Shown here in pieces: positions 6,001-55,673 of a stretch of DNA of 64,000 nt (position 1 is its first letter; every line of letters starts with the position of its first letter). Origin of the DNA: Procambarus clarkii (taxonomy: Eukaryota; Arthropoda; Malacostraca; Decapoda; Cambaridae). The notes under the pieces are model-generated. The model had not been told where the DNA came from. It saw nothing but the letters and a program-made list of their open reading frames with translations, and did no database searches. A program made the position numbers and the translations under genes. Location of the stretch: assembly GCF_040958095.1 (NCBI RefSeq), contig NC_091230.1:12085928-12149927 (forward strand), read 5' to 3'.

Positions 6001-6071
6001 AACACATTGATTTTTATCATTTGTATTGGAAACAACATTGTCATATGTCTTTTCTTGGATCTAAATATTAC

Positions 6072-24568: not shown

Positions 24569-26095
24569 GTTCTGTTTTTATTGCATATATCGACGTTTCA
24601 GCCGGATTAGAGCGGTTTTACGTGTTCATCTTCCATCGGTAATATCAACGGAAAATCAGGAACATTTTAGTTAATTCTAATGAAAACACATTGATTTTTA
24701 TCATTTGTATTGGAAACAACATTGTCATATGTATTTTCTTGGATCTAAATATTACGAATCCTCGCTTTATGATTGGAAGTTAAAATCCTCAAATTGACTT
24801 TTTTTCACGTTTTTCATGTAGTTTGATTGTACGTAAATATATTCATTTTTTTACCAATATTTCGATACTATTTCATGTTTTCTCACTATATGTGATTTGG
24901 CCTTCATATCTCAGAATTTCGCAAATTTTGCATTTTTAAGCAAGTTTCTTGCATTTTGTTTTATACTAAAAATCCTCGAATTTAGCAATATTTCGACGTT
25001 TATCAATCCCCTTTTCCTTTATGTGATTTAAACAAAATATCATCGAATTAGGCAATATTTTGCCGTTTTTCCACGTTTTTGTAAATTTTCAGTTCAGTGG
25101 TATTAATTCAATAAATATACGATAAAAATAATGCAAACACATAATTGATTAGATAATAAACTTAAATACTTCATTTTCAATCATCTATTTGTTTCTCGTT
25201 AAAATACTGAGTAAGATATTGAAAAGGGGAGAACTTCGGTTTTTATTGCATATATCGACGTTTTAGCTGGATTAGAGCGTTTTTACGTGTACATCTTCCA
25301 TCGGTAATATAAACGGAATACCAGGAACATTTGAGTTAATTCTAATGAAAACACATTGATTTTTGTCATTTGTATTGGAAATAACATTGTCATATGTCTT
25401 TTCTTGGATCTAAATATTACGAAACCTCGCTTGATGATTCGAATTTAAAAGCCTCAAATTTGGTATAATAGTGACATTTTTCACGTTTTTCATGTAGTTT
25501 GATATTATGTATATATATTCATTTTTTACCAATATTTTGATACTATTTCATGTAGTATCACGATATGTGATTTGGCCTTAAAAACTCAGAACTTCGCATA
25601 ATATTGCATTTTAAGGAAGTTTTCTTGCATTTTGTTTCGTACTAAAAATCATCGAATTTAGTAATATTTTGACGTTTATCATCCCCCTTTTCCTATATGT
25701 GATATAAACAAAATATCATCGAATTAGGCAATATTTGGCCGTTTTTCCACGTTTTTGTGAATTTTCAGTTTATTGTTATTAATTCAATAAACATACGATA
25801 AAAATGATGCAAACACATACTTGATTAGAAATTAACCTTAAATACTTCATTTTCAATCAACTATTTGTTTCTCGTTAAAATATTGAGTAAGATATTGCAA
25901 GGGGAGAAGTTCTGTTTTCATTGCCTATATCGACGTTTCAGCTGGATTAGAGCGGTTTTACGTGTACATCTTCCATCGGTAATATTAACGGAAAATCAGG
26001 AACATTTTAGTTAATTCTAATGAAAACACATTGATTTTTATCATTTGTATTGGAAACAACATTGTCATATGTCTTTTCTTGGATCTATATATTAC

Positions 26096-26733
26096 GAAAT
26101 TTTTCATTTTTTACCAATATTTCATTTTTTACTAATATTTCGATACTATTTCATGTTTTTTCAAATTCATTTTTTACCAATATATCGATACTATTTCATG
26201 TTTTCTCACAATATGTGATTTGGCCTTCATATCTCAGAATTTCGCAAATTTTCCATTTTAAGCAAGTTTCTTGCATTTTGTTTTGTACTAATAATCGTCG
26301 AATTTAGCAATATTTCGACATTTATCAATCCCCTTTTCCTTTATGTGATTTAAACAAAATATCATCGAATTAGGCAATATTTTGCAGTTTTTCCACGTTT
26401 TTGTAAATTTTCAGTTTATTCAATAAATATACGCTAAAAATATTATACAAACACATAATTGATTAGATAATAAACTTAAATACTTCATTTTCAATCATCT
26501 ATTTTTTTCTCGTTAAAATACTGAGTAAGATATTGAAAAGGGGAGAACTTCGGTTTTTATTGCATATATCGACGTTTCAGCTGGATTAGAGCGGTTTTAC
26601 GTGTACATCTTCCATCGGTAATATAAACGGAAAATCAGGAACATTTGAGTTAATTCTAATGAAAACAAATTGATTTTTTCATTTGTATTGGAAACAACAC
26701 TGTCATATGTCTTTTCTTGGATCTAAATATTAC
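26096..26733. repeat. Scrambled satellite monomer with local duplication (copy 1)
   Basis: Immediately after the marker remnant ACGAAAT the usual first 90 bp are missing. Instead, the TTCATTTTTTACCAATAT segment occurs three times within about 90 bp (near 26102, 26123 and 26166), with the TCGATACTATTTCATGTTTT segment repeated. Beyond that, the monomer continues as normal type B. It is a deletion combined with a short tandem duplication. The short open frame at 26050-26307 is a by-product. Confidence 0.87.
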
Positions 26734-32700: not shown

Positions 32701-33465
32701 TTGAGTTAATTCTAATGAAAACACATTGATTTTTGTCATTTGTATTGGAAATAACATTGTCATATGTCTTTTCTTGGATCTAAATATTACGAAACCTCGC
32801 TTGATGATTCGAATTTAAAATCCTCAAATTTGGTATAATAGTGACATTTTTCACGTTTTTCATGTAGTTTGATATTATGTATATATATTCATTTTTTACC
32901 AATATTTTGATACTATTTCATGTAGTATCACGATATGTGATTTGGCCTTAAAATCTCAGAACTTCGCATAATATTGCATTTTAAGGAAGTTTTCTTGCAT
33001 TTTGTTTCGTACTAAAAATCATCGAATTTAGTAATATTTTGACGTTTATCATCCCCCTTTTCCTATATGTGATATAAACAAAATATCATCGAATTAGGCA
33101 ATATTTGGCCGTTTTTCCACGTTTTTGTGATTTTTCAGTTTATTGTTATTAATTCAATAAACATACGATAAAAATGATGCAAACACATACTTGATTAGAA
33201 ATTAACCTTAAATACTTCATTTTCAATCAACTATTTGTTTCTCGTTAAAATATTGAGTAAGATATTGCAAGGGGAGAAGTTCTGTTTTTATTGCATATAT
33301 AGACGTTTCAGCTGGATTAGAGCGGTTTTACGTGTACATCTTCCATCGGTAATATTAACGGAAAATCAGGAACATTTTAGTTAATTAATATGAAAACACA
33401 TTGATTTTTATCATTTGTATTGGAAACAACATTGTCATATGTCTTTTCTTGGATCAAAATATTAC

Positions 33466-34101
33466 GAATTTTTTCATTTTTTACCAATATTTCATTTTTT
33501 ACTAATATTTCGAAACTATTTCATGTTTTTTCAAATTCATTTTTTACCAATATATCGATACTATTTCATGTTTTCTCACAATATGTAATTTGGCCTTCAT
33601 ATCTCAGAATTTCGCAAATTTTCCATTTTAAGCAAGATTCTTGCATTTTGTTTTGTACTAACAATCGTTGAATTTAGCAATATTTCGACATTTATCAATC
33701 CCCTTTTCCTTTATGTGATTTAAAAAAAATATCATCGAATTAGGCAATATTTTGCAGTTTTTCCACGTTTTTGTAAATTTTCAGTTTATTCAATAAATAT
33801 ACGATAAAAATAATACAAACACATAATTGATTAGATAATAAACTTAAATACTTCATTTTCAATCATCAATTTTTTTCTCGTTAAAATACTGAGTAAGATA
33901 TTGAAAAGGGGAGAACTTCGGTTTTTATTGCATATATCGACGTTTCAGCTGGATTAGAGCGGTTTTACGTGTACATCTTCCATCGGTAATATAAACGGAA
34001 AATCAGGAACATTTGAGTTAATTCTAATGAAAACACATTGATTTTTTCATTTGTATTGGAAACAACACTGTCATATGTCTTTTCTTGGATCTAAATATTA
34101 C
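33466..34101. repeat. Scrambled satellite monomer with local duplication (copy 2)
   Basis: This is nearly the same rearranged structure as at 26096, about 7370 bp upstream, with scattered point differences (ACGAATTTT for ACGAAATTT, CGAAACTATT for CGATACTATT). The neighbours match too: 25421 with 32801 (both GTGACATTTTTCACG and GTATATATATTC) and 26734 with 34102. The rearrangement therefore predates copying of the block. Confidence 0.87.
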
Positions 34102-35449
34102 GAAACCTCGCTTGATGATTCGAAGTTAAAATCCTCAAATTTGGTATAATAGTGACTTTTTCACGTTTTTCATGTAGTTTGATATTACGTAAATATATTC
34201 ATTTTTTACCAATATTTTGATACTATTTAATGTAGTATCACGATATGTGATTTGGCCTTCAAATCTCAGAACTTCCCATAGTATTGCATTTTAAGGAAGT
34301 TTTCTTGCATTTTGTTTCGTACTAAAAATCATCGAATTTAGTAATATATTGACGTTTATCATCCCCCTTTTCCTATATCTGATATAAACAAAATATCATC
34401 GAATTAGGCAATATTTTGCCGTTTTTCCACGTTTTTGTGAATTTTCAGTTTATTGTTAATAATTCAATAAATATACGATAAAAATGATGTAAACACATAA
34501 TTGATTAGAAATTAACCTTAAATACTTCATTTTCAATCAACTATTTGTTTCTCGTTAAAATATTGAGTAAGATATTGCAAGGGGAGAAGTTCTGTTTTTA
34601 TTGCATATATCGACGTTTCAGCTGAATTAGAGCGGTTTTACGTGTACATCTTCCATCGGTAATATCAACGGAAAATCAGGAACATTTTAGTTAATTCTAA
34701 TGAAAACACATTGATTTTTATCATTTGTATTGGAAACAACATTGTCATATGTCTTTTCTTGGATCTAAATATTACGAAACCTTGCTTTATGATTCGAAGT
34801 TAAATTCCTCAAATTTGGTATAATAGTGACTTTTTTCACGATTTTCATGTAGTTTTATAGTACGTAAATATATTCATTTTTACCAATATATCGATACAAT
34901 TTCAAGTTTTCTCACGATATGTGATTTGGCCTTCATATCTCAGAATTTCGCAAATTTTGCATTTTTAAGCAAGTTTCTTGCATTTTGTTTTGTACTAAAA
35001 ATCCTCGAATTTAGCAATATTTTGACGTTTATCAATCCCCTTTTCCTTCATGTGCTTTAAACAAAATATCATCGAATTAGGCAATATTTTGCCGTTTTTC
35101 CACGTTTTTGTAAATTTTCAGTTTATTGGTATTGATTCATTAAATATACGATAAAAATGATGCAAACACATAATTGATTAGAAATTAACCTTAAATACTT
35201 CATTTTCAATCAACTATTTGTTTCTCGTTAAAATACTGAGTAAGATATTGAAAAAGGGAGAAGTTCTGTTTTTATTGCATATATCGACGTTTCAGCCGGA
35301 TTAGAACGGTTTTACGTGTTCATCTTTCATCGGTAATATCAACGGAAAATCAGGAACATTTGAGTTAATTCTAATGAAAACACATTGATTTTTATCATTT
35401 GTATTGGAAACAACATTGTCATATGTCTTTTCTTGGATCTAAATATTAC

Positions 35450-36035
35450 GAAACCTCGCTTGATGATTCGAATTTAAAATCCTCAAATTTGGTATAATAG
35501 TGACTTTTTTCACGTTTTTCATGTAGTTTGATATTATGTAAATATATTCATTTTTTACCAATATTTTGATACTATTTCATGTAGTATCACGATATGTGAT
35601 TTAGCCTTCAAATCTCAGAACTTCGCATAATATTGCATTTCAAGGAAGTTTTCTTGCATTTTGTTTCGAACTAAAAATCATCGAATTTAGTAATATTTTG
35701 ACGTTTATCATCTCCCTCTTCCTATATGTGATATAAACCAAATATCATCGAATTAGGCAATATTTTGCCGTTTTTCAAGGTTTCTTGAATTTTCAGTTTA
35801 TTGTTATTAATTCAATAAACATACGATAAAAATGATGCAAACACATACTTGATTAGAAATTAACCTTAAATACTTCATTTTCAATCAACTATTTGTTTTT
35901 CGTTAAAATATTGAGTAAGATATTGCAAGGGAAGAAGTTCTGTTTTTATTGCATATATCGACGTTTCAGCTGGATTAGAGCGGTTTGTATTGGAAACAAC
36001 ATTGTCATATGTCTTTTCTTATATCTAAATATTAC
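35450..36035. repeat. Type A satellite monomer with ~88-bp 3' deletion (distant copy)
   Basis: The monomer is 586 bp and carries the same junction GAGCGGTTTGTATTGG and the same linked variants as the monomer at 6072, 29.4 kb away. The following monomers at 36036 and 36711 also match those at 6659 and 7334 in private variants (GATATTAAGTAAAT, TTTCGTATAATAG, ACGTAAGTATATTC). This shows that a block, not one monomer, was copied. Confidence 0.86.
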
Positions 36036-38049
36036 GAAACCTCGCTCTATGATTTGAAGTTAAAAATCCTTAAATTTCGTATAATAGTGACTTTTTTCAC
36101 GTTTTTCATGTAGTTCGATATTAAGTAAATATATTCATTTTTTACCAATATTTCGATACTATTTCATGTTTTCTCGCGATATGTGATTTGGCCTTTATAT
36201 CTCAGAATTTCGCATAATATTGCATTTTAAGCAGTTTTCTTTCATTTTGTTTCGTACTAAAAATCATCGAATTTAGTAATTATTTAACGTTTATCGTCCC
36301 CCTTTTCCTATATGTGATATAAACAAAATATCATCGAATCAGGCAATATTTTGCCGTTTTTCCACGTTTTTGTGAATTTTCAGTTTATTGTTATTAATTC
36401 AATAAATATATGATATAAATGATGCAAACACATAATTGATTAGAAATTAACCTTAAATACTTCATTTTCAATCAACTATTTGTTTCTTGTTAAAATATTG
36501 AGTAAGATATTGGAAGGGGAAAAGTTCTGTTTTTATTGTATATATCGACGTTTCAGCTGGATTAGAGCGGTTTTACGTGTACATCTTCCATCGGTAATAT
36601 CAACAGAAAATCAGGAATATTTTAGTTAATTCTAATGAACATACATTGATTTTTATCATTTGCATTGGAAACAACATTGTCATATGTCTTTTCTTGGATC
36701 TAAATATTACGAAACCTCGCTTTATGATTCGAAGTTAAATTCCTCAAATTTGGTATAATAGTGACTTTTTTCACGTTTTTCATGTAGTTTTATAGTACGT
36801 AAGTATATTCATTTTTACCAATATATCGATACTATTTCAAGTTTTCTCACGATATGTGATTTGGCCTTCATATCTCAGAATTTCGCAAATTTTTCATTTT
36901 AAGTAAGTTTCTTGCATTTTGTTTTGTACTAAAAATCGTCGAATTTAGCAATATTTCGACGTTTATCAATCCCCTTTTCCTTTATGTGATTTAAACAAAA
37001 TATCATCGAATTAGGCAATATTTTGCCGTTTTTCCACGTTTTTGTAAATTTTCAGTTTATTGGTAATAATTCATTAAATATACGATAAAAATGATGCAAA
37101 CACATAATTGATTAGATAATAACCTTACATACTTCATTTACAATCATCTATTTGTTTCTCGTTAGAATACTGAGTAAGATATTGAAAAGGGGAGAAGTTC
37201 GGTTTTTATTGCATATATCGACATTTCAACCGAAATAGAGCGGTTTTACGTGTACATCTTCCATCGGTAATATAAACGAAAAATCAGGAACAATTTAGTT
37301 AATTCTAATGAAAACACATTGATTTTTATCATTTGTATTGGAAACAACATTGTCATGTCTTTTCTTGTATCTATATAATACGAAACCTCGCTCTATGATT
37401 CGAAGTTAAAATCCTCAAATTTGGTATAATGGTGACTTTTTCACGTTTTTCATTTCATATTACGTAAATATATTCATTTTTACCAATATTTGGATACTAT
37501 TTAATGTAGTATCACGATATGTGATTTGGCCTTCAAATCTCAGAATTTTGCATAATATTGCGATTTAGGGAAGTTTTCTTGCATTTTGTTTCCTACTAAA
37601 ATTTGAGAACTTAGTAATATTTTGACGTTTATCATCCCCCTTTTCCTATATGTGATATAAACAAAATATCATTGAATTAGGCAATATTTTGCTGTTTTTC
37701 CACATTTTTGTGAATTTTCAGTTTATTGTTAATAATTCATTATATATACGATAAAAATGATGCAAACACATAATTGATTAGAAATTATCCTTAAATACTT
37801 CATTTTAAATCAAATATTTGTTTCTCGTTAAAATACAGAGTTAGATATTAAAAAGGGGAGAAGTTCTGTTTTTATTGCATATATCGAAGTTTCAGCCGGA
37901 TTAAAGCAGTTTTACGTGTTCATCTTCCATCGGTAATATCAACGGAAAATCAGGAACATTTTAGTTAATTCTAATGAAAACACATTGATTTTTATCATTT
38001 GTATTGGAAACAACATTGTCATATGTATTTTCTTGGATCTAAATATTAC

Positions 38050-40751
38050 GAAACCTCGCTTTGTGATTGGAAGTTAAAATCCTCAAATTTGGTATAATAG
38101 TGACTTTTTTTCACGTTTTTCATGTAGTTTGATTGTACGTAAATATATTCATTTTTTTACCAATATTTCGATACTATTTCATGTTTTCTCACGATATGTG
38201 ATTTGGCCTTCATATCTCAGAATTTTGCAACTTTTGCATTTTTAAGCAAGTTTCTTGCATTTTGTTTTATACTAAAATCCTCGAATTTAGCAATATTTCG
38301 ACGTTTATCAATTCCCTTTTCCTTTATGTGATTTAAACAAAATATCATCGAATTAGGAAATATTTTGCTGTTTTTCCAAGTTTTTTGTGAATTTTCAGTT
38401 TATTGTTATTAATTCACTATATATAAGATAAAAATGATGCAAACACATAATTGATTAGATAATAACCTTAAATACTTCATTTTCAATCATCTATTTGTTT
38501 CTCGTTAAAATACTGAGTAAGATATTGAAAAGGGGAGAACTTCGGTTTTTATTGCATATATCGACGTTTCAGCTGGATTAGAGCGTTTTTACGTGTACAT
38601 CTTCCACTGGTAATATAAACGGAAAATCAGGAACATTTGAATTAATTCTAATGAAAACACATTGATTATTTTTATCATTTGTATTGGAAACAACATTGTC
38701 ATATGTCTTTTCTTGGATCTAAATATTACGAGACCTCGCTTGATGATTCGAATTTAAAATCCTCAAATTTGGTATAATAGTGACTTTTTTCACGTTTTTC
38801 ATGTAGTTTGATATTACGTAAATATATTCATTTTTTACCAATATTTTGATACTATTTCATGTAGTAACACGATATGTGATTTGGCCTTCAAATCTAAGAA
38901 CTTCACAAAATATTGCATTTTAAGGAAGTTTTCTTGCATTTTGTTTCGTACTAAAAATCATCGAATTTAGTAATATTTTGACGTTTATCATCCCTCTTTT
39001 CCTATATCTGATATAAACAAAATATCATCGAATTAGGCAATATTTTGCCGTTTTTCCACGTTTTTGTGAATTTTCAGTTTATTGTTATTAATTCAATATA
39101 TATACGATAAAAATGATGCAAACACATAATTGATTAGAAATTAACCTTAAATACTTCATTTTCAATCAACTATTTGTTTCTCGTTAAAATATTGAGTAAG
39201 ATATTGCAAGGGGAAAAGTTCTGTTTTTATTGCATATATCGACGTTTCAGCTGAATTAGAGCGGTTTTACGTGTACATCTTCCATCGGTAATATAAACGG
39301 AAGATCAGGAACATTTTAGTTAATTCTAATGAAAACACATTGATTTTTATCATTTGTATTGGATACAACATTGTCATATGTCTTTTCTTGGATCTAAATA
39401 TTACGAGACCTCGCTTGATGATTCGAATTTAAAATCCTCAAATTTGGTATAATAGTGACTTTTTTCACGTTTTTCATGTAGTTTGATATTACGTAAATAT
39501 ATTCATTTTTTACCAATATTTTGATACTATTTCATTTAGTATCACGTTATGTGATTTGGCCTTCAAATCTCAGAACTTCGCATAATATTGCATTTTAAGG
39601 AAGTTTCCTTGCATTATGTTTCGTACTAACAATCATCGAATTTAGTAATATTTTGAAGTTTATCATCCCCCTTTTCCTATATGTGATATAAACAAAATAT
39701 CATCGAATTAGGCAATATTTTGCCGTTTTCCACGTTTTTGTGAATTTTCAGTTTATTGTTATTAATTCAATAAATATACGATAAAAATGATGCAAACACA
39801 TAATTGATTAAAAATTAACCAAAAATACTTCATTATTAATCAACTATTTGTTTCTCGTTAAAATATTGAATGAGATATTGCAAGGGGAGAAGTTCTGTTT
39901 TTATTGCATATATCGACGTTTCAGCTGAATTAGAGCGGTTTTACGTGTACATCTTCCATCGGTAATATAAACGGATAATCAGGAACATTTTAGTTAATTC
40001 TAATGAAAACACATTGATTTTCATCATTTGTCTTGGAAACAACATTGTCATATGTCTTTTCTTGGATCTAAATGTTACGAAACCTCGCTTTATGATTCGA
40101 CGTTAAAATCCTCAAATTTGGTATAGTAGTGACTTTTTTCACGTTTTTGATGTAGTTTTATAGTACGAAAATATATTCATTTTTTACCAATATTTCGATA
40201 CTATTTCATGTTTTCTCACTATATGTGATTTGGCCTTCATATCTCAGAATTTCGCAAATTTTCTATTTTAAGCAAGTTTCTTGCATTTTGTTTTGTACTA
40301 AAAATCCTCGAATTTAGCAATATTTTGACGTTTATCAATTCCCTTTTCCTTTATGTGATTTAAACAAAATATCATCGAATTAGGCAATATTTTGCCGTTT
40401 TTCCACGTTTTTGTAAATTTTCAGTTTATTGGTATTAATTCATTATATATACGATAAAAATGATGCAAACACATAATTGATTAGAAATTACCCTTAAATA
40501 CTTCATTTTCAATCAACTATTTGCTTCTCGTTAAAATATTGAGTAAGATATTGCAAGGGGAAAAGTTCTGTTTTTATTGCATATATCGACGTTTCAACTA
40601 AATTAGAGCGGTTTTACGTGTACATCTTCCATCGGTAATATAAACGGATAATCAGGAACATTTGAATTAATTCTAATGAAAACACATTGATTTTTATCAT
40701 TTGTATTGGAAACAACGTTGTCATATGTCTTCTCTTTTATCTAAATATTAC
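38050..40751. repeat. Four-monomer block, first copy of a 2.7-kb duplication
   Basis: It consists of monomers at 38050 (B, CTTTGTGATTGGAAG), 38730 (A, ACGAGACCTCG), 39405 and 40079 (B, GATTCGACG). Private variants such as TTCACTATATATAAGATAAA and CCAAGTTTTTTGTGAATT recur in the same order in the block at 42502, offset by 4452-4454 bp. Confidence 0.85.
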
Positions 40752-41277
40752 GAAACCTCGCTCTATGATTCGAAGTTAAAATCCTCAAATTTGGTATAAT
40801 AGTGACTTTTTTCACGTTTTTCATGTAGTTTGATATTACGTAAATTTATTTTTTACCAATATTTTGATACTATTTCATGTAGTATCACGATATATGATTT
40901 GGCCTTCAAATATCAGAACTTCGCATAATATTGCATTTTAAGGAAGTTTTCTTGCATTTTGTTTCGTACTAAAAATCATCGAATTTAGTAATATTTTGAC
41001 GTTTATCATCCCCCTTTTCCTATATCTGATATAAACAAAATATCATCGAATTAGGCAATATTTGGCCGTTTTTCCACGTTTTTGTGAATTTTCAGTTTAT
41101 TGTTATTAATTCAGTATATATACGATAAAAATGATGCAAACACATTATTGATTAGAAATTAACCTTAAATACTTCATTTTCAATCAACTATTTGTTTCTC
41201 GTTAAAATATTGAGTAAGATATTGCAAGGGGAAAAGTTTTGTTTTTATTGCATATATCGACGTTTCAGCTGAATTAG

Positions 41278-41638
41278 CAACCTGTCCTCTTAAAAAGAAC
41301 GTCGCTTTTGGCCGTTTGCCCGTATGGCCGAATTTGGACGTAATTTGAAAATGAAAAAAAAACGAAAATAAATTTGGGATTTTTTTTTTCAACTACAGTA
41401 AGTTAAGGGTCCTCTGATAGGTTAGGTGGGCAGGAAATTCTCATAAAGTTTCAAAACGTTATGAAAAACGTTAATTTAAAGTGTCCTCTTATAACCTCTG
41501 CGCGTAGGCCGGACGACTGAAATAGAAAACGGAACAGTACGTCACTTTTGTGAGTCGATTTCATTTCAAATTACGTCCAAATTTGGCCATAGTGCGCATA
41601 CGGGCGAAAAGTGACGTTATTTTTAAGAGGACGGGTTG
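41278..41638. mobile_element. MITE-like non-autonomous DNA transposon, 361 bp, 7-bp target duplication
   Basis: This is the only non-satellite DNA inside the array. The left end reads CAACCTGTCCTCTTAAAAA. The right end, read on the other strand, begins CAACCCGTCCTCTTAAAAA. The two inverted arms stay alignable for about 80 bp, including AATTTGGACGTAATTTGA in both. GAATTAG flanks both sides (41271-41277 and 41639-41645), while other monomers have a single GAATTAGAGCGG, so the empty site is known. A short internal GTCCTCTTATAA near 41483 echoes the tip. There is no transposase frame, so it would need one in trans. A 7-bp duplication with CA...TG ends could fit a P-like or Dada-like family; the superfamily is unresolved. 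The small minus-strand frame at 41180-41392 crosses its left end and is spurious. Confidence 0.93.
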
Positions 41639-42278
41639 GAATTAGAGCGGTTTTACGTGTACATCTTCCATCGGTAATATAAACGGGAAATCAGGAACAT
41701 TTTAGTTAATTCTAATGAAAACACATTGATTTTTATCATTTGTATTGGAAACAGCATTGTCATATGTCTTTTCTTGGATCTAAATTTTACGAAACCTCGC
41801 TCTATGATTCGAAGTTAAAATCTCTAAATTTGGTATAATAGTGACTTTTTTCAGGTTTTTCATGTAGTTTGATATTACGTAAATATATTCATTTTTTACC
41901 AATATTTTGATACTATTTCATTTAGTATCACGTTATGTGATTTGGCCTTCAAATCTCAGAACTTCGCATAATATTGCATTTTAAGGAAGTTTTCTTGCAT
42001 TTTGTTTCGTACTAACAATCATCGAATTTAGTAATATTTTGAACTTTATCATCCCCCTTTTCCTATATGTGATATAAACAAAATATCATCGAATTAGGCA
42101 ATATTTTGCCGTTTTTCCACGTTTATGTGAATTTTCAGTTGTTTGTTATTAATTCAATAAATATACGATAAAAATGATGCAAACACATAATTGATTAGAA
42201 ATTAACCAAAAATACTTCATTATTAATCAACTATTTGTTTCTCGTTAAAATATTGAATGAGATATTGCAAGGGGAGAA

Positions 42279-42314
42279 GTTAAAATACTGAGTAAGATAT
42301 TGAAAAAGGGAGAA
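42279..42314. repeat. 36-bp duplication marking an A/B hybrid monomer (copy 2)
   Basis: The junction is the same as at 24533, in the 711-bp monomer starting at 41791. This monomer also shares GTTTATGTGAATTTTCAG followed by TTGTTTG with the one at 24049, 17.7 kb away. Confidence 0.9.
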
Positions 42315-42501
42315 GTTCTGTTTTTATTGCATATATCGACGTTTCAGCCGGATTCGAGCGGTTTTACGTGTTCATCTTCCATCGGTAATATCAACGGAAA
42401 ATCAGGAACATTTTAGTTAATTCTAATGAAAACACATTGATTTTTATCATTTGTATTGGAAACAACATTGTCATATGTATTTTCTTGGATCTAAATATTA
42501 C

Positions 42502-45206
42502 GAAACCTCGCTTTGTGATTGGAAGTTAAAATCCTCAAATTTGGTATAATAGTGACTTTTTTTCACGTTTTTCATGTAGTTTGATTGTACGTAAATATAT
42601 TCATTTTTTTACCAATATTTCGATACTATTTCATGTTTTCTCACGATATGTGATTTGGCCTTCATATCTCAGAATTTTGCAACTTTTGCATTTTTAAGCA
42701 AGTTTCTTGCATTTTGTTTTATACTAAAATCCTCGAATTTAGCAATATTTCGACGTTTATCAATTCCCTTTTCCTTTATGTGATTTAAACAAAATATCAT
42801 CGAATTAGGCAATATTTTGCTGTTTTTCCAAGTTTTTTGTGAATTTTCAGTTTATTGTTATTAATTCACTATATATAAGATAAAAATGATGCAAACACAT
42901 AATTGATTAGATAATAACCTTAAATACTTCATTTTCAATCATCTATTTGTTTCTCGTTAAAATACTGAGTAAGATATTGAAAAGGGGAGAACTTCGGTTT
43001 TTATTGCATATATCGACGTTTCAGCTGGATTAGAGCGTTTTTACGTGTACATCTTCCACTGGTAATATAAACGGAAAATCAGGAACATTTTAATTAATTC
43101 TAATGAAAACACATTGATTATTTTTATCATTTGTATTGGAAACAACATTGTCATATGTCTTTTCTTGGATCTAAATATTACGAGACCTCGCTTGATGATT
43201 CGAATTTAAAATCCTCAAATTTGGTATAATAGTGACTTTTTTCACGTTTTTCATGTAGTTTGATATTACGTAAATATATTCATTTTTTACCAATATTTTG
43301 ATACTATTTCATGTAGTATCACGATATGTGATTTGGCCTTCAAAACTCAGAACTTCACAAAATACTGCATTTAAAGGAAGTTTTCTTGCATTTTGTTTCG
43401 TACTAAAAATCATCGAATTTAGTAATATTTTGACGTTTATCATCCCTCTTTTCCTATATCTGATATAAACAAAATATCATCGAATTAGGCAATATTTTGC
43501 CGTTTTTCCACGTTTTTGTGAATTTTCAGTTTATTGTTATTAATTCAATATATATATACGATAAAAATGATGCAAACACATAATTGATTAGAAATTAACC
43601 TTAAATACTTCATTTTCAATCAACTATTTGTTTCTCGTTAAAATATTGAGTAAGATATTGCAAGGGGAAAAGTTCTGTTTTTATTGCATATATCGACGTT
43701 TCAGCTGAATTAGAGCGGTTTTACGTGTACATCTTCCATCGGTAATATAAACGGATGATCAGGAACATTTTAGTTAATTCTAATGAAAACACATTGATTT
43801 TTATTATTTGTATTGGATACAACATTGTCATATGTCTTTTCTTGGATCTAAATAATACGAAACCTCGCTCTATGATGCGAAGTTAAAATCCTTAAATTTG
43901 GTATAATAGTGACTTTTTTCAGGTTTTTCATGTAGTTTGATATTACGTAAATATATTCATTTTTTACCAATATTTTGATACTATTTCATTTAGTATCACG
44001 TTATGTGATTTGGCCTTCAAATCTCAGAACTTCGCATAATATTGCATTTTAAGGAAGTTTCCTTGCATTTTGTTTCGTACTAACAATCATCGAATTTAGT
44101 AATATTTTGAAGTTTATCATCCCCCTTTTCCTATATGTGATATAAACAAAATATCATCGAATTAGGCAATATTTTGCCGTTTTCCACGTTTTTGTGAATT
44201 TTCAGTTTATTGTTATTAATTCAATAAATATACGATAAAAATGATGCAAACACATAATTGATTAAAAATTAACCAAAAATACTTCATTATTAATCAACTA
44301 TTTGTTTCTCGTTAAAATATTGAATGAGATATTGCAAGGGGAGAAGTTCTGTTTTTATTGCATATATCGACGTTTCAGCTGAATTAGAGCGGTTTTACGT
44401 GTACATCTTCCATCGGTAATATAAACGGATAATCAGGAACATTTTAGTTAATTCTAATGAAAACACATTGATTTTCATCATTTGTATTGGAAACAACATT
44501 GTCATATGTCTTTTCTTGGATCTAAATGTTACGAAACCTCGCTTTATGATTCGACGTTAAAATCCTCAAATTTGGTATAATAGTGACTTTTTTCACGTTT
44601 TTGATGTAGTTTTATAGTACGAAAATATATTCATTTTTTACCAATATTTCGATACTATTTCATGTTTTCTCACTATATGTGATTTGGCCTTCATATCTCA
44701 GAATTTCGCAAATTTTCTATTTTAAGCAAGTTTCTTGCATTTTGTTTTGTACTAAAAATCCTCGAATTTATCAATATTTTGACGTTTATCAATTCCCTTT
44801 TCCTTTATGTGATTTAAACAAAATATCATCGAATTAGGCAATATTTTGCCGTTTTTCTACGTTTTTGTAAATTTTCAGTTCATTGGTATTAATTCCTTAT
44901 ATATACGATAACAATAATGCAAACACATAATTGATTAGATTATAACCTTAAATACTTCATTTTCAATCATCTATTTGTTTCTCTTTAAAATACTGAGTAA
45001 GATATTGAAAAGGGGAGAAGTTCTGTTTTTATTGCATATATCGACGTTTCAGCCGGATTAGAGCGGTTTTACGTGTACAACTTCCATCGGTAATATAAAC
45101 GGAAAATCAGGAACATTTTAGTTAATTCTAATGAAAACACATTGATTTTTATCATTTGTATTGGAAACAACATTGTCATATGTCTTTTCTTGGATCTAAA
45201 TATTAC
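42502..45206. repeat. Four-monomer block, second copy of a 2.7-kb duplication
   Basis: Monomers at 42502, 43182, 43859 and 44533 repeat the order and private variants of 38050-40751. They include CTTTGTGATTGGAAG, ACGAGACCTCG, TTTAGTATCACGTTATG and TTTGATGTAGTTTTATAG. The copies have diverged in places: the third monomer starts CTCTATGATGCGAAG here but CTTGATGATTCGAATTT at 39405, and the end of the fourth monomer differs. Local replacement after duplication is likely. Confidence 0.85.
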
Positions 45207-47942
45207 GAAACCTCGCTTGATGATTCGAATTTAAAATCCTCAAATTTGGTATAATAGTGACTTTTTTCACGTTTTTCATGTAGTTTGATATTACGTAAAT
45301 ATATTCATTTTTGTACCAATATTTTGATACTATTTCATGTAGCATCACGATATGTGATTTGGCCTTCAAATCTCAGAACTTCGCATAATATTGCATTTTA
45401 AGGAAGTTTTCTTACATTTTGTTTCGTACTAAAAATCATCGAATTTAGTAATATTTTGACGTTTATCATCCCCCTTTTCCTATATCTGATATAAACAAAA
45501 TATCATCGAAATAGGCAATATTTTGCCGTTTTTCCACGTTTTTGTGAATTTTCAGTTTATTGTTAATAATTCAATATATATACGATAAAAATGATGCAAA
45601 CACATAATTGATTAGAAATTAACCTTAAATACTTCATTTTCAATCAACTTTTTGTTTCTCGTTAAAATATTGAGTAAGATATTGCAAGGGGAAAAGTTCT
45701 GTTTTTATTGCATATATCGAGGTTTCAGCTGAATTAGAGCGGTTTTACGTGTACTTCTTCCATCGGTAATATAAACGGAAAATCAGGAACATTTTAGTTA
45801 ATTCTAATGAAAACACATTGATTTTTATCATTTGTATTGGAAACAACATTGTCATATGTCTTTTCTTGGAACTAAATAATACGAAACCTCGCTCTATGAT
45901 TTGAAGTTAAAATCCTCAAATATGGTTATATAGTGACTTTTTTCACGTTTTTCATGTAGTTTGATATTACGTAAATATATTCATTTTTTACCAATATTTT
46001 GATACTATTTCATTTAGTATCACGTTATGTGATTTGGCCTTAAAATCTCAGAACTTCGCATAATATTGCATTTTAAGGAAGTTTTCTTGCATTTTGTTTC
46101 GTACTAACAATCATCGAATTTAGTAATATTTTGAACTTTATCATCCCCCTTTTCCTATATGTGATATAAACAAAATATCATCGAATTAGGCAATATTTTG
46201 CCGTTTTTCCACGTTTATGTGAATTTTCAGTTTATTGTTATTAATTCAATAAATATACGATAAAAATGATGCAAACACATAATTGATTAGAAATTAACCA
46301 AAAATACTTCATTATTAATCAACTATTTGTTTCTCGTTAAAATATTGAATGAGATATTGCAAGGGGAGAAGTTAAAATACTGAGTAAGATATTGAAAAAG
46401 GGAGAAGTTCTGTTTTTATTGCATATATCGACGTTTCAGCCGGATTAGAGCGGTTTTACGTGTTCATCTTCCATCGGTAATATCAACGGAAAATAAGGAA
46501 CATTTTAGTTAATTCTAATGAAAACACATTGATTTTTATCATTTGTATTGGAAACAACATTGTCATATGTATTTTCTTGGATCTAAATATTACGAAACCT
46601 CGCTTTATGATTGGAAGTTAAAATCCTCAAATTTGGTATAATAGTGACTTTTTTCACGTTTTTCATGTAGTTTGATTGTACGCAAATATATTCATTTTTT
46701 ACCAATATTTCGATACTATTTCATGTTTTCTCACTATATGTGATTTGGCCTTCATATCTCAGAATTTCGCAAATTTTGAATTTTTAACAAGTTTCTTGCA
46801 TTTTGTTTTATACTAAAAATCCTCGAATTTAGCAATATTTTGACGTTTATCAATTCCCTTTTCCTTTATGTGATTTAAACAAAATATCATCGAATTAGGC
46901 AATATTTTGCCGTTTTTCCACGTTTTTGTGAATTTTCAGTTTATTGGTATTAATTCATTAAACATACGATAAAAATGATGCAAACACATAATTGATTAGA
47001 AATTAACCTTAAATACTTCATTTTCAATCATCTATTTGTTTCTCGTTAAAATATTGAGTAAGATATTGCAAGGGGAAAAGTTCTGTTTTTATTGCATATA
47101 TCGACGTTTCAGCAGAATTAGAGCGGTTTTACGTGTACATCTTCCATCGGTAATATAAACGGAAAATCAGGAACATTTTAGTTAATTCTAATGAAAACAC
47201 ATTGATTTTTATCATTTGTATTGGAAACAACATTGTCATATGTCTTTTCATGGATCTAAATATTACGAAACCTCGCTCTATGATTCGAAGTTAAAATCCT
47301 TAAATTTGGTATAATAGTGACTTTTTTCAGGTTTTTCATGTAGTTTGATATTACGTAAATATATTCATTTTTTACCAATATTTTGATACTATTTCATTTA
47401 GTATCACGTTATGTGATTTGGCATTCGAATCTCAGAACTTCGCATAATATTGCATTTTAAGGAAGTTTTCTTGCATTTTGTTTCGTACTAACAATCATCG
47501 AATTTAGTAATATTTTGAAGTTTATCATCCCCCTTTTCCTATATGTGATATAAACAAAATATCATTGAATTAGGCAATATTTTGCCGTTTTTCTACGTTT
47601 TTGTAAATTTTCAGTTCATTGGTATTAATTCCTTATATATACGATAACAATAATGCAAACACATAATTGATTAGATTATAACCTTAAATACTTCATTTTC
47701 AATCATCTATTTGTTTCTCTTTAAAATACTGAGTAAGATATTGAAAAGGGGAGAAGTTCTGTTTTTATTGCATATATCGACGTTTCAGCCGGATTAGAGC
47801 GGTTTTACGTGTACAACTTCCATCGGTAATATAAACGGAAAATCAGGAACATTTTAGTTAATTCTAATGAAAACACATTGATTTTTATCATTTGTATTGG
47901 AAACAACATTGTCATATGTCTTTTCTTGGATCTAAATATTAC
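45207..47942. repeat. Higher-order repeat unit 1 (A1-A2-B-A3), 2736 bp
   Basis: The four monomers start at 45207, 45883, 46594 and 47267. A1 begins CTTGATGATTCGAATTT and ends with GTGTACTTCTTCC. A2 has TTTAGTATCACGTTATG and the 36-bp duplication. B has TTTATGATTGGAAG and TGATTGTACGCAAAT. A3 has GGCATTCGAATCTC and a B-like 3' end (TTCTACGTTTTTGTAAATT, TTAATTCCTTATATA). The same order returns at 49292 and 52025. Confidence 0.9.
46371..46406. repeat. 36-bp duplication in monomer A2 of the higher-order repeat
   Basis: The host monomer (45883) is 711 bp. The duplication marks the second position of the four-monomer higher-order unit and is followed as expected by a B monomer at 46594. Confidence 0.9.
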
Positions 47943-49291
47943 GAAACCTCGCTTGATGATTCGAATTTAAAATCCTCAAATTTGGTATAATAGTGACTTT
48001 TTTCACGTTTTTCATGTAGTTTGATATTACGTAAATATATTCATTTTTTACCAATATTTTGATACTATTTCATGTAGTATCACGATATGTGATTTGGCCT
48101 TCAAATCTCAGAACTTCGCATAATATTGCATTTTAAGGAAGTTTTCTTGCATTTTGTTTCGTACTAAAAATCATCGAATTTAGTAATATTTTGACGTTTA
48201 TCATCCCCCTTTTCCTATATCTGATATAAACAAAATATCATCGAAATAGGCAATATTTTGCCGTTTTTCCACGTTTTTGTGAATTTTCAGTTTATTGTTA
48301 ATAATTCAATATATATACGATAAAAATGATGCAAACACATAATTGATTAGAAATTAACCTTAAATACTTCATTTTCAATCAACTTTTTGTTTCTCGTTAA
48401 AATATTGAGTAAGATATTGCAAGGGGAAAAGTTCTGTTTTTATTGCATATATCGACGTTTCAGCTGAATTAGAGCGGTTTTACGTGTACTTCTTCCATCG
48501 GTAATATAAACGGAAAATCAGGAACATTTTAGTTAATTCTAATGAAAACACATTGATTTTTATCATTTGTATTGGAAACAACATTGTCATGTCTTTTCTT
48601 AGATCTAAATTTTACGAAACCTCGCTCTATGATTCGAAGTTAAAATCTCTAAATTTGGTATAATAGTGACTTTTTTCAGGTTTTTCATGTAGTTTGATAT
48701 TACGTAAATATATTCATTTTTTACCAATATTTTGATACTATTTCATTTAGTATCACGTTATGTGATTTGGCCTTAAAATCTCAGAACTTCGCATAATATT
48801 GCATTTTAAGGAAGTTTTCTTGCATTTTGTTTCGTACTAACAATCATCGAATTTAGTAATATTTTGAACTTGATCATCCACCTTTTCCTATATGTGATAT
48901 AAACAAAATATCATCGAATTAGGCAATATTTTGCCGTTTTTCTACGTTTTTGTAAATTTTCAGTTCATTGCTATTAATTCCTTATATATACGATAACAAT
49001 AATGCAAACACATAATTGATTAGATTATAACCTTAAATACTTCATTTTCAATCATCTATTTGTTTCTCTTTAAAATACTGAGTAAGATATTGAAAAGGGG
49101 AGAAGTTCTGTTTTTATTGCATATATCGACGTTTCAGCCGGATTAGAGCGGTTTTACGTGTACAACTTCCATCGGTAATATAAACGGAAAATCAGGAACA
49201 TTTTAGTTAATTCTAATGAAAACACATTGATTTTTATCATTTGTATTGGAAACAACATTGTCATATGTCTTTTCTTGGATCTAAATATTAC
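47943..49291. repeat. Contracted higher-order unit (A1 plus A2/A3 chimera), 1349 bp
   Basis: Only two monomers are present. The second, at 48616, begins as A2 (AAAATCTCTAAATTTGG, GGCCTTAAAATCTC) and ends as A3 (ACTTGATCATCCACC, TTCATTGCTATTAATTCC). It lacks the 36-bp duplication and the following B monomer. An exchange between A2 and A3 around 48790-48870 would remove two monomers and leave exactly this chimera. Confidence 0.88.
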
Positions 49292-52024
49292 GAAACCTCG
49301 CTTGATGATTCGAATTTAAAATCCTCAAATTTGGTATAATAGTGACTTTTTTCACGTTTTTCATGTAGTTTGATATTACGTAAATATATTCATTTTTTAC
49401 CAATATTTTGATACTATTTCATGTAGTATCACGATATGTGATTTGGCCTTCAAATCTCAGAACTTCGCATAATATTGCATTTTAAGGAAGTTTTCTTGCA
49501 TTTTGTTTCGTACTAAAAATCCTCGAATTTAGTAATATTTTGACGTTTATCATCCCCCTTTTCCTATATCTGATATAAACAAAATATCATCGAAATAGGC
49601 AATATTTTGCCGTTTTTCCACGTTTTTGTGAATTTTCAGTTTATTGTTAATAATTCAATATATATACGATAAAAATGATGCAAACACATAATTGATTAGA
49701 TATTAACCTTAAATACTTCATTTTCAATCAACTTTTTGTTTCTCGTTAAAATATTGAGTAAGATATTGCAAGGGGAAAAGTTCTGTTTTTATTGCATATA
49801 TCGACGTTTCAGCTGAATTAGAGCGGTTTTACGTGTACTTCTTCCATCGGTAATATAAACGGAAAATCAGGAACATTTTAGTTAATTCTAATGAAAACAC
49901 ATTGATTTTTATCATTTGTATTGGAAACAACATTGTCATGTCTTTTCTTAGATCTAAATTTTACGAAACCTCGCTCTATGATTCGAAGTTAAAATCTCTA
50001 AATTTGGTATAATAGTGACTTTTTTCAGGTTTTTCATGTAGTTTGATATTACGTAAATATATTCATTTTTTACCAATATTTTGATACTATTTCATTTAGT
50101 ATCACGTTATGTGATTTGGCCTTAAAATCTCAGAACTTCGCATAATATTGCATTTTAAGGAAGTTTTCTTGCATTTTGTTTCGTACTAACAATCATCGAA
50201 TTTAGTAATATTTTGAACTTTATCATCCCCCTTTTCCTATATGTGATATAAACAAAATATCATCGAATTAGGCAATATTTTGCCGTTTTTCCACGTTTAT
50301 GTGAATTTTCAGTTTATTGTTATTAATTCAATAAATATACGATAAAAATGATGCAAACACATAATTGATTAGAAATTAACCAAAAATACTTCATTATTAA
50401 TCAACTATTTGTTTCTCGTTAAAATATTGAATGAGATATTGCAAGGGGAGAAGTTAAAATACTGAGTAAGATATTGAAAAAGGGAGAAGTTCTGTTTTTA
50501 TTGCATATATCGACGTTTCAGCCGGATTAGAGCGTTTTTACGTGTTCATCTTCCATCGGTAATATCAACGGAAAATCAGGAACATTTTAGTTAATTCTAA
50601 TGAAAACACATTGATTTTTATCATTTGTATTGGAAACAACACTGTCATATGTATTTTCTTGGATCTGAATATTACGAAACCTCGCTTTATGATTGGAAGT
50701 TAAAATCCTCAAATTTGGTATAATAGTGACTTTTTTCACGTTTTTCATGTAGTTTGATTGTACGCAAATATATTCATTTTTTACCAATATTTCGATACTA
50801 TTTCATGTTTTCTCACTATATGTGATTTGGCCTTCATATCTCAGAATTTCGCAAATTTTGCATTTTTAACAAGTTTCTTGCATTTTGTTTTATACTAAAA
50901 ATCCTCGAATTTAGCAATATTTTGACGTTTATCAATTCCCTTTTCCTTTATGTGATTTAAACAAAATATCATCGAATTAGGCAATATTTTGCCGTTTTTC
51001 CACGTTTTTGTGAATTTTCAGTTTATTGGTATTAATTCATTAAACATACGATAAAAATGATGCAAACACATAATTGATTAGAAATTAACCTTAAATACTT
51101 CATTTTCAATCAACTATTTGTTTCTCGTTAAAATATTGAGTAAGATATTGCAAGGGGAAAAGTTCTGTTTTTATTGCATATATCGACGTTTCAGCAGAAT
51201 TAGAGCGGTTTTACGTGTACATCTTCCATCGGTAATATAAACGGAAAATCAGGAACATTTTAGTTAATTCTAATGAAAACACATTGATTTTTATCATTTG
51301 TATTGGAAACAACATTGTCATATGTCTTTTCATGGATCTAAATATTACGAAACCTCGCTCTATGATTCGAAGTTAAAATCCTTAAATTTGGTATAATAGT
51401 GACTTTTTTCAGGTTTTTCATGTAGTTTGATATTACGTAAATATATTCATTTTTTACCAATATTTTGATACTATTTCATTTAGTATCACGTTATGTGATT
51501 TGGCATTCGAATCTCAGAACTTCGCATAATATTGCATTTTAAGGAAGTTTTCTTGCATTTTGTTTCGTACTAACAATCATCGAATTTAGTAATATTTTGA
51601 ACTTGATCATCCACCTTTTCCTATATGTGATATAAACAAAATATCATCGAATTAGGCAATATTTTGCCGTTTTTCTACGTTTTTGTAAATTTTCAGTTCA
51701 TTGCTATTAATTCCTTATATATACGATAACAATAATGCAAACACATAATTGATTAGATTATAACCTTAAATACTTCATTTTCAATCATCTATTTGTTTCT
51801 CTTTAAAATACTGAGTAAGATATTGAAAAGGGGAGAAGTTCTGTTTTTATTGCATATATCGACGTTTCAGCCGGATTAGAGCGGTTTTACGTGTACAACT
51901 TCCATCGGTAATATAAACGGAAAATCAGGAACATTTTAGTTAATTCTAATGAAAACACATTGATTTTTATCATTTGTATTGGAAACAACATTGTCATATG
52001 TCTTTTCTTGGATCTAAATATTAC
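49292..52024. repeat. Higher-order repeat unit 3 (A1-A2-B-A3), 2733 bp
   Basis: Monomers start at 49292, 49965, 50676 and 51349. By eye the unit differs from the next one at few positions, for example AAAATCCTCGAATTTAG here and AAAATCATCGAATTTAG there. The minus-strand frame at 50587-50787 falls in it and is a spurious AT-rich frame. Confidence 0.9.
50453..50488. repeat. 36-bp duplication in monomer A2 of the higher-order repeat
   Basis: The host monomer (49965) is 711 bp and is followed by the B monomer at 50676. The context is the same as at 46371, about 4082 bp away, which equals one full four-monomer unit plus the contracted copy. Confidence 0.9.
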
Positions 52025-54749
52025 GAAACCTCGCTTGATGATTCGAATTTAAAATCCTCAAATTTGGTATAATAGTGACTTTTTTCACGTTTTTCATGTA
52101 GTTTGATATTACGTAAATATATTCATTTTTTACCAATATTTTGATACTATTTCATGTAGTATCACGATATGTGATTTGGCCTTCAAATCTCAGAACTTCG
52201 CATAATATTGCATTTTAAGGAAGTTTTCTTGCATTTTGTTTCGTACTAAAAATCATCGAATTTAGTAATATTTTGACGTTTATCATCCCCCTTTTCCTAT
52301 ATCTGATATAAACAAAATATCATCGAAATAGGCAATATTTTGCCGTTTTTCCACGTTTTTGTGAATTTTCAGTTTATTGTTAATAATTCAATATATATAC
52401 GATAAAAATGATGCAAACACATAATTGATTAGAAATTAACCTTAAATACTTCATTTTCAATCAACTTTTTGTTTCTCGTTAAAATATTGAGTAAGATATT
52501 GCAAGGGGAAAAGTTCTGTTTTTATTGCATATATCGACGTTTCAGCTGAATTAGAGCGGTTTTACGTGTACTTCTTCCATCGGTAATATAAACGGAAAAT
52601 CAGGAACATTTTAGTTAATTCTAATGAAAACACATTGATTTTTATCATTTGTATTGGAAACAACATTGTCATGTCTTTTCTTAGATCTAAATTTTACGAA
52701 ACCTCGCTCTATGATTCGAAGTTAAAATCTCTAAATTTGGTATAATAGTGATTTTTTTCAGGTTTTTCATGTAGTTTGATATTACGTAAATATATTCATT
52801 TTTTACCAATATTTTGATACTATTTCATTTAGTATCACGTTATGTGATTTGGCCTTAAAATCTCAGAACTTCGCATAATATTGCATTTTAAGGAAGTTTT
52901 CTTGCATTTTGTTTCGTACTAACAATCATCGAATTTAGTAATATTTTGAACTTTATCATCCCCCTTTTCCTATATGTGATATAAACAAAATATCATCGAA
53001 TTAGGCAATATTTTGCCGTTTTTCCACGTTTATGTGAATTTTCAGTTTATTGTTATTAATTCAATAAATATACGATAAAAATGATGCAAACACATAATTG
53101 ATTAGAAATTAACCAAAAATACTTCATTATTAATCAACTATTTGTTTCTCGTTAAAATATTGAATGAGATATTGCAAGGGGAGAAGTTAAAATACTGAGT
53201 AAGATATTGAAAAAGGGAGAAGTTCTGTTTTTATTGCATATATCGACGTTTCAGCCGGATTAGAGCGGTTTTACTTGTTCATCTTCCATCGGTAATATCA
53301 ACGGAAAATCAGGAACATTTTAGGTAATTCTAATGAAAACACATTGATTTTTATCATTTGTATTGGAAACAACATTGTCATATGTATTTTCTTGGATCTA
53401 AATATTACGAAACCTCGCTTTATGATTTGAAGTTAAAATCCTCAAATTTGGTATAATAGTGACTTTTTTCACGTTTTTCATGTAGTTTGATTGGTCGCAA
53501 ATATATTCATTTTTTACCAATATTTCGATACTATTTCATGTTTTCTCACTATATGTGATTTGGCCTTCATATCTCAGAATTTCGCAAATTTTGCATTTTT
53601 AACAAGTTTCTTGCATTTTGTTTTATACTAAAAATCCTCGAATTTAGCAATATTTTGACGTTTATCAATTCCCTTTTCCTTTATGTGATTTAAACAAAAT
53701 ATCATCGAATTAGGCAATATTTTGCCGTTTTTCCACGTTTTTGTGAATTTTCAGTTTATTGTTATTAATTCAATATATATACGATTAAAATGATGCAAAC
53801 ACATAATTGATTAGAAATTAACCTTAAATACTTCATTTTCAATCAACTATTTGTTTCTCGTTAAAATATTGAGTAAGATATTGCAAGGGGAAAAGTTCTG
53901 TTTTTATTGCATATATCGACGTTTCAGCTGAATTAGAGCGGTTTTACGTGTACATCTTCCATCGGTAATATAAACGGAAAATCAGGAACATTTTAGTTAA
54001 TTCTAATGAAAACACATTGATTTTTATCATTTGTATTGGAAACAACATTGTCATATGTCTTTTCATGGATCTAAATATTACGAAACCTCGCTCTATGATT
54101 CGAAGTTAAAATCCTTAAATTTGGTATAATAGTGACTTTTTTCAGGTTTTTCATGTAGTTTGATATTACGTAAATATATTCATTTTTTACCAATATTTTG
54201 ATACTATTTCATTTAGTATCACGTTATGTGATTTGGCCTTCAAATCTCAGAACTTCGCATAATATTGCATTTTAAGGAAGTTTTCTTGCATTTTGTTTCG
54301 TACTAACAATCATCGAATTTAGTAATATTTTGAAGTTTATCATCCCCCTTTTCCTATATGTGATATAAACAAAATATCATCAAATTAGGCAATATTTTGC
54401 CGTTTTTCCACGTTTTTGTGAATTTTCAGTTTATTGTTATTAATTCAATAAATATACGATAAAAATGATGCAAACACATAATTGATTAGAAATTAACCAA
54501 AAATACTTCATTGACTATTTGTTTCTCGTTAAAATATTGAATGAGATATTGCAAGGGGAGAAGTTCTGTTTTTATTGCATATATCGACGTTTCAGCTGAA
54601 TTAGAGCGGTTTTACGTGTACATCTTCCATCGGTAATATAAACGGAAAATCAGGAACATTTTAGTTAATTCTAATGAAAACACATTGATTTTCATCATTT
54701 GTATTGGAAACAACATTGTCATATGTCTTTTCTTGGATCTAAATATTAC
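52025..54749. repeat. Higher-order repeat unit 4 (A1-A2-B-A3'), 2725 bp
   Basis: Monomers start at 52025, 52698, 53409 and 54082. The B monomer carries TGATTGGTCGCAAAT, and the last monomer reads GGCCTTCAAATCTC instead of GGCATTCGAATCTC, with a small deletion near 54511 (TTCATTGACTATTTG). Divergence is rising here, close to the array edge. Confidence 0.88.
53186..53221. repeat. 36-bp duplication in monomer A2 of the higher-order repeat
   Basis: The host monomer (52698) is 711 bp. This duplication lies 2733 bp after the one at 50453, giving the length of the higher-order unit directly. Confidence 0.9.
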
Positions 54750-54968
54750 GAAACCTCGCTTTATGATTCGACGTTAAAATCCTCAAATTTGGTATAATAG
54801 TGACTTTTTTCAATTTTTTTGATGTAGTTTTATAGTACGAAAATATATTCATTTTTACCAATATTTCGATACTATTTCATGTTTTCTCACTATATGTGAT
54901 TTGGCCTTCATATCTCAGAATTTCTCAAATTTTGCATTTTTAAGCAAGTTTCTTGCATTTTGTTTTGT
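54750..54968. repeat. Last, truncated satellite monomer at the array edge
   Basis: A type B monomer (CTTTATGATTCGACG) runs for 219 bp and stops inside TTGCATTTTGTTTTGT, where other copies continue ACTAAAAATC. The next base begins the LTR-like sequence. No satellite is visible to the right. Confidence 0.92.
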
Positions 54969-55673
54969 TGTTGTAATCCACAAGTTAGTAGGAATTATTA
55001 GCTAGAGGATCATTACTACAACACTTAACGAATGATGATTGAAAGTACATGTAAGTAGACAGACTATGGATCACATATCTAAGAAAGGTCAATGGATTAA
55101 GACCGAAGCTGTTTAGCCAAATTAATAATTCCTGGAAAGAGGAATTATTCTTCGTCAGGCTTCTAGGATCAAGGTTACCGCTCTAGGGATAAGGTTAATC
55201 GGATTATACCTTCCTCGATAGGCGTGGTGAAATGATTGAGGCCATGGTTGGCTGGAGTCAGTCTGATTGTGGAGGTTGAACTAGCAAGTCCTTTGGATCC
55301 CCGTTTGTGGCAGCAGCGAAGTGTAGCAGACAGCTATGCGAGAGCCTGTTGTGATCTTAGTGACCAAGTTAAGTCTGCAGTATGTGAGTATTGAATGTCA
55401 GACTAACCGGGTGTGGAGCGTTGTAGTAATCATTCCGTATTAGGGATTTAGGCGGAAGTTACGAGTGTGGGTGGTGATCGCGGAGGTCAAGTGGTCTATG
55501 GGTATTGGAAGTATATTGACCTAATAGAGTATGTTAATATATTATTATTTGTCAGAGTCTATTCTTTGTAATTAAATGACAAAACACGACGGCCATTAAA
55601 TACCTTCCATCTGTCCCCTCATAGTGTTCCTGGTTTGGTTGGTGAGGGAATGTTAGGGAATTGGTAGACGACA
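54969..55673 (+). mobile_element. Candidate long terminal repeat (705 bp), Gypsy-type
   Basis: The stretch starts TGTTGT and ends ACGACA, the TG...CA form of an LTR with near-matching inverted tips (5 of 6 bases). It is followed four bases later by a primer-binding-site candidate. Composition is mixed, unlike the satellite. ATTAAA-like polyadenylation words lie near 55574 and 55595. The second LTR is not in the window, so a target duplication cannot be checked, and the left boundary rests on where the satellite stops. It could instead be another dispersed repeat. Confidence 0.55.

Follow-up and report, generated by a model that had tools for sequence, protein, structure and literature searches.

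Is a long invertebrate satellite homogenised as one fixed higher-order unit, in the manner of primate alpha satellite, or through blocks of variable size? The question is raised by a satellite array of the crayfish Procambarus clarkii that fills most of a 64,000-nucleotide stretch of contig NC_091230.1 (positions 12,085,928 to 12,149,927 of the forward strand), here called the window, in whose numbering all coordinates are given. A first-pass annotation had proposed that this array contains a higher-order repeat (HOR) of four monomers, about 2.73 kb long, and that homogenisation acts on this unit. We found that the higher-order organisation is real, but a stable 2.73-kb homogenisation unit is not borne out. 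Because monomers six apart are more alike than monomers four apart, six-monomer units lie upstream, and the remaining array shows no preferred lag, homogenisation probably proceeds by out-of-register exchange over variable blocks, and not by a fixed 2.73-kb unit.

Monomer order at the right end of the array

The satellite forms a single head-to-tail array, which was segmented with a profile built from 51 clean monomers, accepting matches at E-values up to 1e-5. This gave 84 segments, some of them fragments, numbered here from 0. Over the whole window the profile matches the plus strand only. The monomer consensus is 676 bp long and AT-rich (28.0% GC). It carries an internal period of 66 bp, the best among periods of 54-80 bp and reached by none of 100 nulls, as scored on columns 81-480, a range picked after the monomer self-matches had been seen. 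The right flank consists of sequence unrelated to the satellite, with minisatellites.

1..54990, plus strand: satellite array, 84 segments of a tandem ~676-bp monomer with 28% GC; left side open at the window limit, right edge mid-monomer
54666..54990, plus strand: truncated final monomer and array edge (profile match)

Four monomer classes, X, D, b and m, recur in this order across positions 45123-54665 (segments 69-82), D being the monomer with a 36-bp duplication. The block reads X D b m / X D-m / X D b m / X D b m-h, with two intact 4-mers, one more that ends in a hybrid monomer, and a 2-mer. The block reported by the first-pass annotation is thus genuine, although its limits in monomer phase are 45123-54665 and not 45207-54749. 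The order A1-A2-B-A3 that it had described is recovered in segments 69-72, 75-78 and 79-82, where a cut at a distance of 0.07 groups X, D and m and leaves b apart. Its spacing of 2733 bp between the 36-bp duplication junctions at 50453 and 53186 is exact, and 2733 is the most frequent 15-mer offset in the window.

45123..47858, plus strand: 4-mer copy 1, X D b m (segments 69-72), 2736 bp; 98.94% identical to 49208-51940 and 97.83% to 51941-54665
47859..49207, plus strand: 2-mer X-(D/m), 1349 bp; segment 74 fits D, then m
49208..51940, plus strand: 4-mer copy 2, X D b m (segments 75-78), 2733 bp (class clustering, copy alignment)
51941..54665, plus strand: 4-mer copy 3, X D b and hybrid m/h (segments 79-82), 2725 bp; 98.28% identical to copy 2

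Mean identity within segments 69-82 is 92.95% between adjacent monomers (13 pairs) and 96.70% between monomers four apart (10 pairs), so the equality that the annotation had named as fatal to its own claim is not what the block displays. Identity is higher still at six apart (97.89%, 8 pairs) and ten apart (97.87%, 4 pairs). When the order of these monomers was shuffled, 85 of 20000 permutations attained the four-apart mean, and 3 of 5000 matched the highest value across lags 1-8 (the lag being the distance in monomers). A Mann-Whitney test of four-apart over adjacent identity gave p = 0.006, the pairs being non-independent. The 4-mer register is interrupted once, by the 2-mer, and for this reason only 5 of the 10 four-apart pairs are at least 98% identical. 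With the hybrid segments 74 and 82 excluded, cognate monomers of the block share on average 99.1% (range 97.7-100%, 13 pairs) and non-cognate monomers 93.3% (90.8-94.8%, 53 pairs); since the classes were themselves defined by similarity, these figures are descriptive, and the order permutations constitute the test. Monomers at the same position are more alike than neighbours in segments 69-82, which is the general property of an HOR. Between whole 4-mer copies, identities are 98.94, 98.28 and 97.83%, corresponding to 29 private differences in 2733, 47 in 2725 and 59 in 2725 aligned bases.

Upstream, and overlapping the first 4-mer, are two copies of a 6-mer of ~4.09 kb (without an insert carried by one of them). 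They are 97.92% identical over 4084 aligned bases, with 376 gap columns, mostly the insert, and identity at lag 6 is 98.4% over 4 pairs. The second copy has X and D in common with 4-mer copy 1. The inserted element is absent from segment 69, the cognate monomer in 6-mer copy 2; the identity of its arms was computed with one extra base included.

37966..42417, plus strand: 6-mer copy 1 (segments 59-64), holding the 361-bp insert (lag-6 identity, alignment to copy 2)
42418..46509, plus strand: 6-mer copy 2 (segments 65-70), 4092 bp (lag-6 identity, alignment to copy 1)
41278..41638, no strand assigned: 361-bp insertion bounded by terminal inverted repeats of ~80 bp (86%), with a target duplication of 7 bp, GAATTAG

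The host monomer of this element is the sole segment longer than 711 bp among the 84. As for the 36-bp duplication, its 47-base junction has exactly five occurrences in the array, one of them (at 24528) far outside the block; the five duplications are as follows.

24498..24571, plus strand: 36-bp tandem duplication outside the HOR block
42244..42317, plus strand: 36-bp tandem duplication in a class D monomer
46336..46409, plus strand: 36-bp tandem duplication in a class D monomer
50418..50491, plus strand: 36-bp tandem duplication in a class D monomer
53151..53224, plus strand: 36-bp tandem duplication in a class D monomer

Hybrid monomers and shortened units

Several monomers are fusions of two others. 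In the fusion tests, only those sites were counted at which the hybrid agrees with one of two differing parents. For segment 74, with segments 76 (D) and 78 (m) as parents, a single switch fits all 75 of 75 informative sites, and none of 20000 permutations was as good; with segments 80 and 72 as parents there is 1 error in 76 sites. At 674 bp this segment keeps the normal monomer length, as homologous exchange predicts. The 1384 bp lost in the 2-mer equal 2733 minus 1349. By its sequence, the 2-mer reads as a deletion derivative of the 4-mer, in which one exchange would have taken out the part between D and m. Segment 82 is a second, less clean hybrid (m/h), with a class switch at 54100-54238 and 4 errors in 38 sites or 3 in 34.

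48534..49207, plus strand: hybrid monomer D/m (segment 74), switching at 48776-48872 with the best-fitting parents and at 48915-48943 with the other pair tried
47183..47858, plus strand: class m monomer (segment 72), with a single switch at 47550-47588

Class m can itself be described as a fusion. Its 3' part shows no difference in 276 positions from segment 68 of the 6-mer, and its 5' part is nearest to segments 46, 64 and 67 (6, 7 and 8 differences in 330). A single switch leaves 3 errors in 72 sites with segments 46 and 68 as parents and 5 in 74 with segments 67 and 68. Several of these switches lie near columns 240-410, which made us suspect a mid-monomer recombination hotspot; the 147 breakpoints, judged by eye, form no clear hotspot, the largest bin of their histogram holding 19 of the 147 (columns 209-260).

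Block copying along the array and competing explanations

Outside the block and the 6-mers, the array has no comparable periodicity. Over segments 0-58 (~38 kb), mean identity stays between 90.9 and 92.6% at all lags from 1 to 24. In segments 0-68 (three fragments, 15, 23 and 29, dropped, and lags counted on the closed-up list) there is no preferred lag, the best of lags 1-8 being reached in 252 of 1000 permutations. A copying model recovered 20 co-linear blocks of at least 900 bp along the array, versus 2 in each of 3 shuffled orders. Divergence of such blocks is 0.16-0.51% around the 4-mers, 0.44-0.64% around the 6-mers and 0.7-1.9% in the rest of the array, where the older copies lie at lags of 4, 7, 8, 11, 21 and 46. 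Self-BLAST found six segments of at least 1 kb, at offsets of 4092, 2733, 7372, 4452, 1349 and 9896. Adjacent monomers have thus been amplified jointly, a mark of HORs, as both the block copying and the hybrid monomers indicate.

Neighbouring monomers are in fact less alike than random pairs (0.9135 versus a permutation mean of 0.9235; 0 of 5000 permutations as low). This test of the whole array, like the lag counts, was made without the fragmentary segments 0, 15, 23, 29 and 83; a test of class alternation also omitted segments 41 and 52. Two classes tend to alternate, with 50 of 71 adjacent pairs differing where 35.0 +/- 4.0 are expected (1 of 5000 permutations as high); in a three-class version 51 of 71 differ (6 of 5000). 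Not one of 75 adjacent pairs is at least 97% identical, versus 3.1 expected, while 5 of 74 pairs reach this value at lag 2, 7 of 72 at lag 4 and 11 of 71 at lag 6, most of them, and nearly all at lag 6, from the HOR region. The units amplified have therefore been two monomers long or longer, and the array may rest on an older, dimer-like layer.

Mean best-partner identity, taken per 12 segments from the left to the right edge, runs 97.5, 97.5, 97.1, 97.9, 98.4, 98.4 and 99.1%. The youngest block thus adjoins the array edge, which is mildly surprising; for one edge of one array this is an observation, not a rule.

Marks of old block copying are also visible as rare indels. Truncated junctions joining about column 623 to columns 33-36 are common to 5988-7249, 7922-9183 and 35366-36626, the first and third 29.4 kb apart. 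A tandem duplication of 167/166 bp within the monomer occurs at 9904-10237 and at 14655-14987, eight segments apart.

The normal-length hybrids at the ends of deletions, the nested unit sizes and the block copying together point to homology-directed, out-of-register exchange, by unequal crossover or break-induced replication, which would keep duplicating and deleting blocks of several monomers. Both processes have been described (PMC8997354) and predict such products; our data do not separate the two. In the last ~17 kb of the array, we infer that a recent 6-mer (4.09 kb) would have given, from itself or beside it, the 4-mer (2.73 kb), and this in turn the 2-mer (1.35 kb). Several observations weigh against so simple a course. 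Class b is poorly explained as a fusion between monomers of the 6-mer (13 errors in 67 sites), so that the step from 6-mer to 4-mer is not clean; the fusion counts omit sites at which a hybrid agrees with neither parent; and segment 70 has a foreign patch of ~150 bp at its 5' start, with a switch at 45946-45966, which suggests some gene conversion as well. The units are also few, two complete 4-mers and two altered ones, and the pericentromeric position discussed below is drawn from analogy.

How far, then, could simpler histories account for the array? A true alpha-satellite-like HOR array, with a single stable 2.73-kb unit homogenised throughout, would agree with 2733 as the commonest offset and with the closeness of the three 4-mer copies (97.8-98.9%). 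This explanation is nonetheless improbable for the 55 kb seen: it is at odds with the higher identity at six than at four monomers apart, with the 6-mers upstream and with the permutation result for segments 0-68. The lag profile likewise disfavours a fixed 2.73-kb unit throughout the array. As to regularity, the register comprises two full 4-mers, one hybrid-ended and one 2-mer, with 6-mers upstream, and segments 0-68 favour no particular lag. A one-off segmental duplication, local to the edge and made of two or three events without continuing homogenisation, would make the label HOR too regular; the presence of only three to four units, the blocks at many other lags across the array and the varied self-BLAST offsets agree with it. 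Nested 6-, 4- and 2-mers that share class D and meet at hybrid junctions need repeated events at this place, however, and we regard a one-off origin as rather unlikely. That the assembler created or merged copies is highly improbable: satellites are error-prone to assemble, but the longest exact repeat within the array, 1047 bp, is short for long reads, and the copies carry private differences. The blocks, their identities and the hybrid monomers are directly observed, and exchange over variable blocks remains our preferred account of them.

By likeness to other crayfish satellites, the array is probably pericentromeric heterochromatin, and its role is most likely that of structural heterochromatin or centromere-proximal DNA, not of a coded product. 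A broader proposal, which we offer only tentatively and consider unlikely as a whole, is that multi-monomer homogenisation is active at the edge of a decapod pericentromeric array, where 6-, 4- and 2-mers, reduced through hybrids, would form the youngest layer beside unrelated flanking sequence, the reverse of the human layout with its young centre.

Comparison with known satellites, and the right flank

The crayfish satellite PlSAT75-664 offers one close parallel. Its 664-bp unit consists of the pericentromeric PlSAT3-411 (26.76% GC) and four direct sub-repeats of ~70 bp (PMC7859515); a 2026 comparison names it PlSAT57-664 and finds it strongly present in Faxonius (PMC13130569). Our monomer is similarly AT-rich and close to 664 bp, at 676 bp with a 66-bp internal period and 28.0% GC. 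In these features, length, GC content and internal period, it resembles PlSAT75-664 and PlSAT3-411 and may belong with them. The PlSAT3-411 primer pair found opposite-strand sites on the consensus, and 11 of 2000 shuffles did equally well or better, although the F primer, taken alone, scores highest at a place on the wrong strand (14.0 versus 13.5). An earlier test, on one monomer with stricter gaps, was weak and placed both primers on the same strand (21 of 1000 and 175 of 1000 shuffles); it was in this single-monomer test only that primers of other satellites served as controls.

The comparison with alpha satellite made by the first-pass annotation is well founded in its essentials, given cognates 99.1% and classes 93.3% alike and hybrid monomers at the shortened units. 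Alpha-satellite HORs of primates also have structural variants and hybrids (PMC9549924, PMC8997354, PMC5615363). As in alpha satellite, diverged monomers are copied jointly in blocks, cognates exceed 95% identity, variants arise by loss or gain of whole monomers, and hybrids keep the monomer length. The monomer is far longer (676 bp versus ~171), however, and we claim no sequence relationship; identity within the unit is 91-95% versus 70-90%, and there are few units only. Whereas the youngest repeats of human arrays are described as central, with divergence rising outward (PMC9549924, PMC8997354), the youngest block here lies at the array edge. No match to the CENP-B box consensus was present in the window at one mismatch or fewer (shuffles, mean 4.5).

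HORs are documented in beetles, where regular ones are usually dimeric, and in other animals (PMC5615363). Compared with the usual dimers of beetles, we see a tetramer and a hexamer; HORs in invertebrates were thus already known, and the decapod tetramer and hexamer add a case. In literature found with a limited set of wordings on higher-order repeats in crustaceans and decapods, and in the parts of it available, the crayfish paper applies the term within the 664-bp unit, to its sub-repeats, and not to sets of such units (PMC7859515), the remainder being reviews or work on insects (e.g., PMC12692304); the available part of a decapod repeat paper holds nothing comparable (PMC10454600). The array gives a base-level view of exchange of the human-centromere type, with joint copying of monomers and deletion hybrids, in a crustacean with far longer monomers. 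If young layers at the edge recur in other arrays of this genome, they would test whether the youngest repeats must be central.

We also searched the right flank for other features. Among 10 of its 35 stop-to-stop open reading frames compared with Pfam as possible coding remnants, none matched at the curated cut-off, and three sub-threshold matches (best E-value 0.011) were taken as chance. Rfam at gathering scores and ARAGORN had no hits there. In IMG/VR, 0 contigs contained a 29-base word taken from the satellite, in a scan that may omit records close to the source genome. A motif of ~90 bp is found at 56749-56837 and 57946-58033, 83-91% identical in two pieces and resembling the tail of a dispersed short repeat; this motif is probably one that occurs in decapod genomes. 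Two homogeneous minisatellites, of 40 bp (6.3 copies, 57285-57535) and 39 bp (11 copies, 59907-60335), are followed by a 28-bp minisatellite at 61824-64000 that runs off the window and has a marked strand asymmetry, with a GC skew of 0.54 and an AT skew of 0.42 over 62001-64000.

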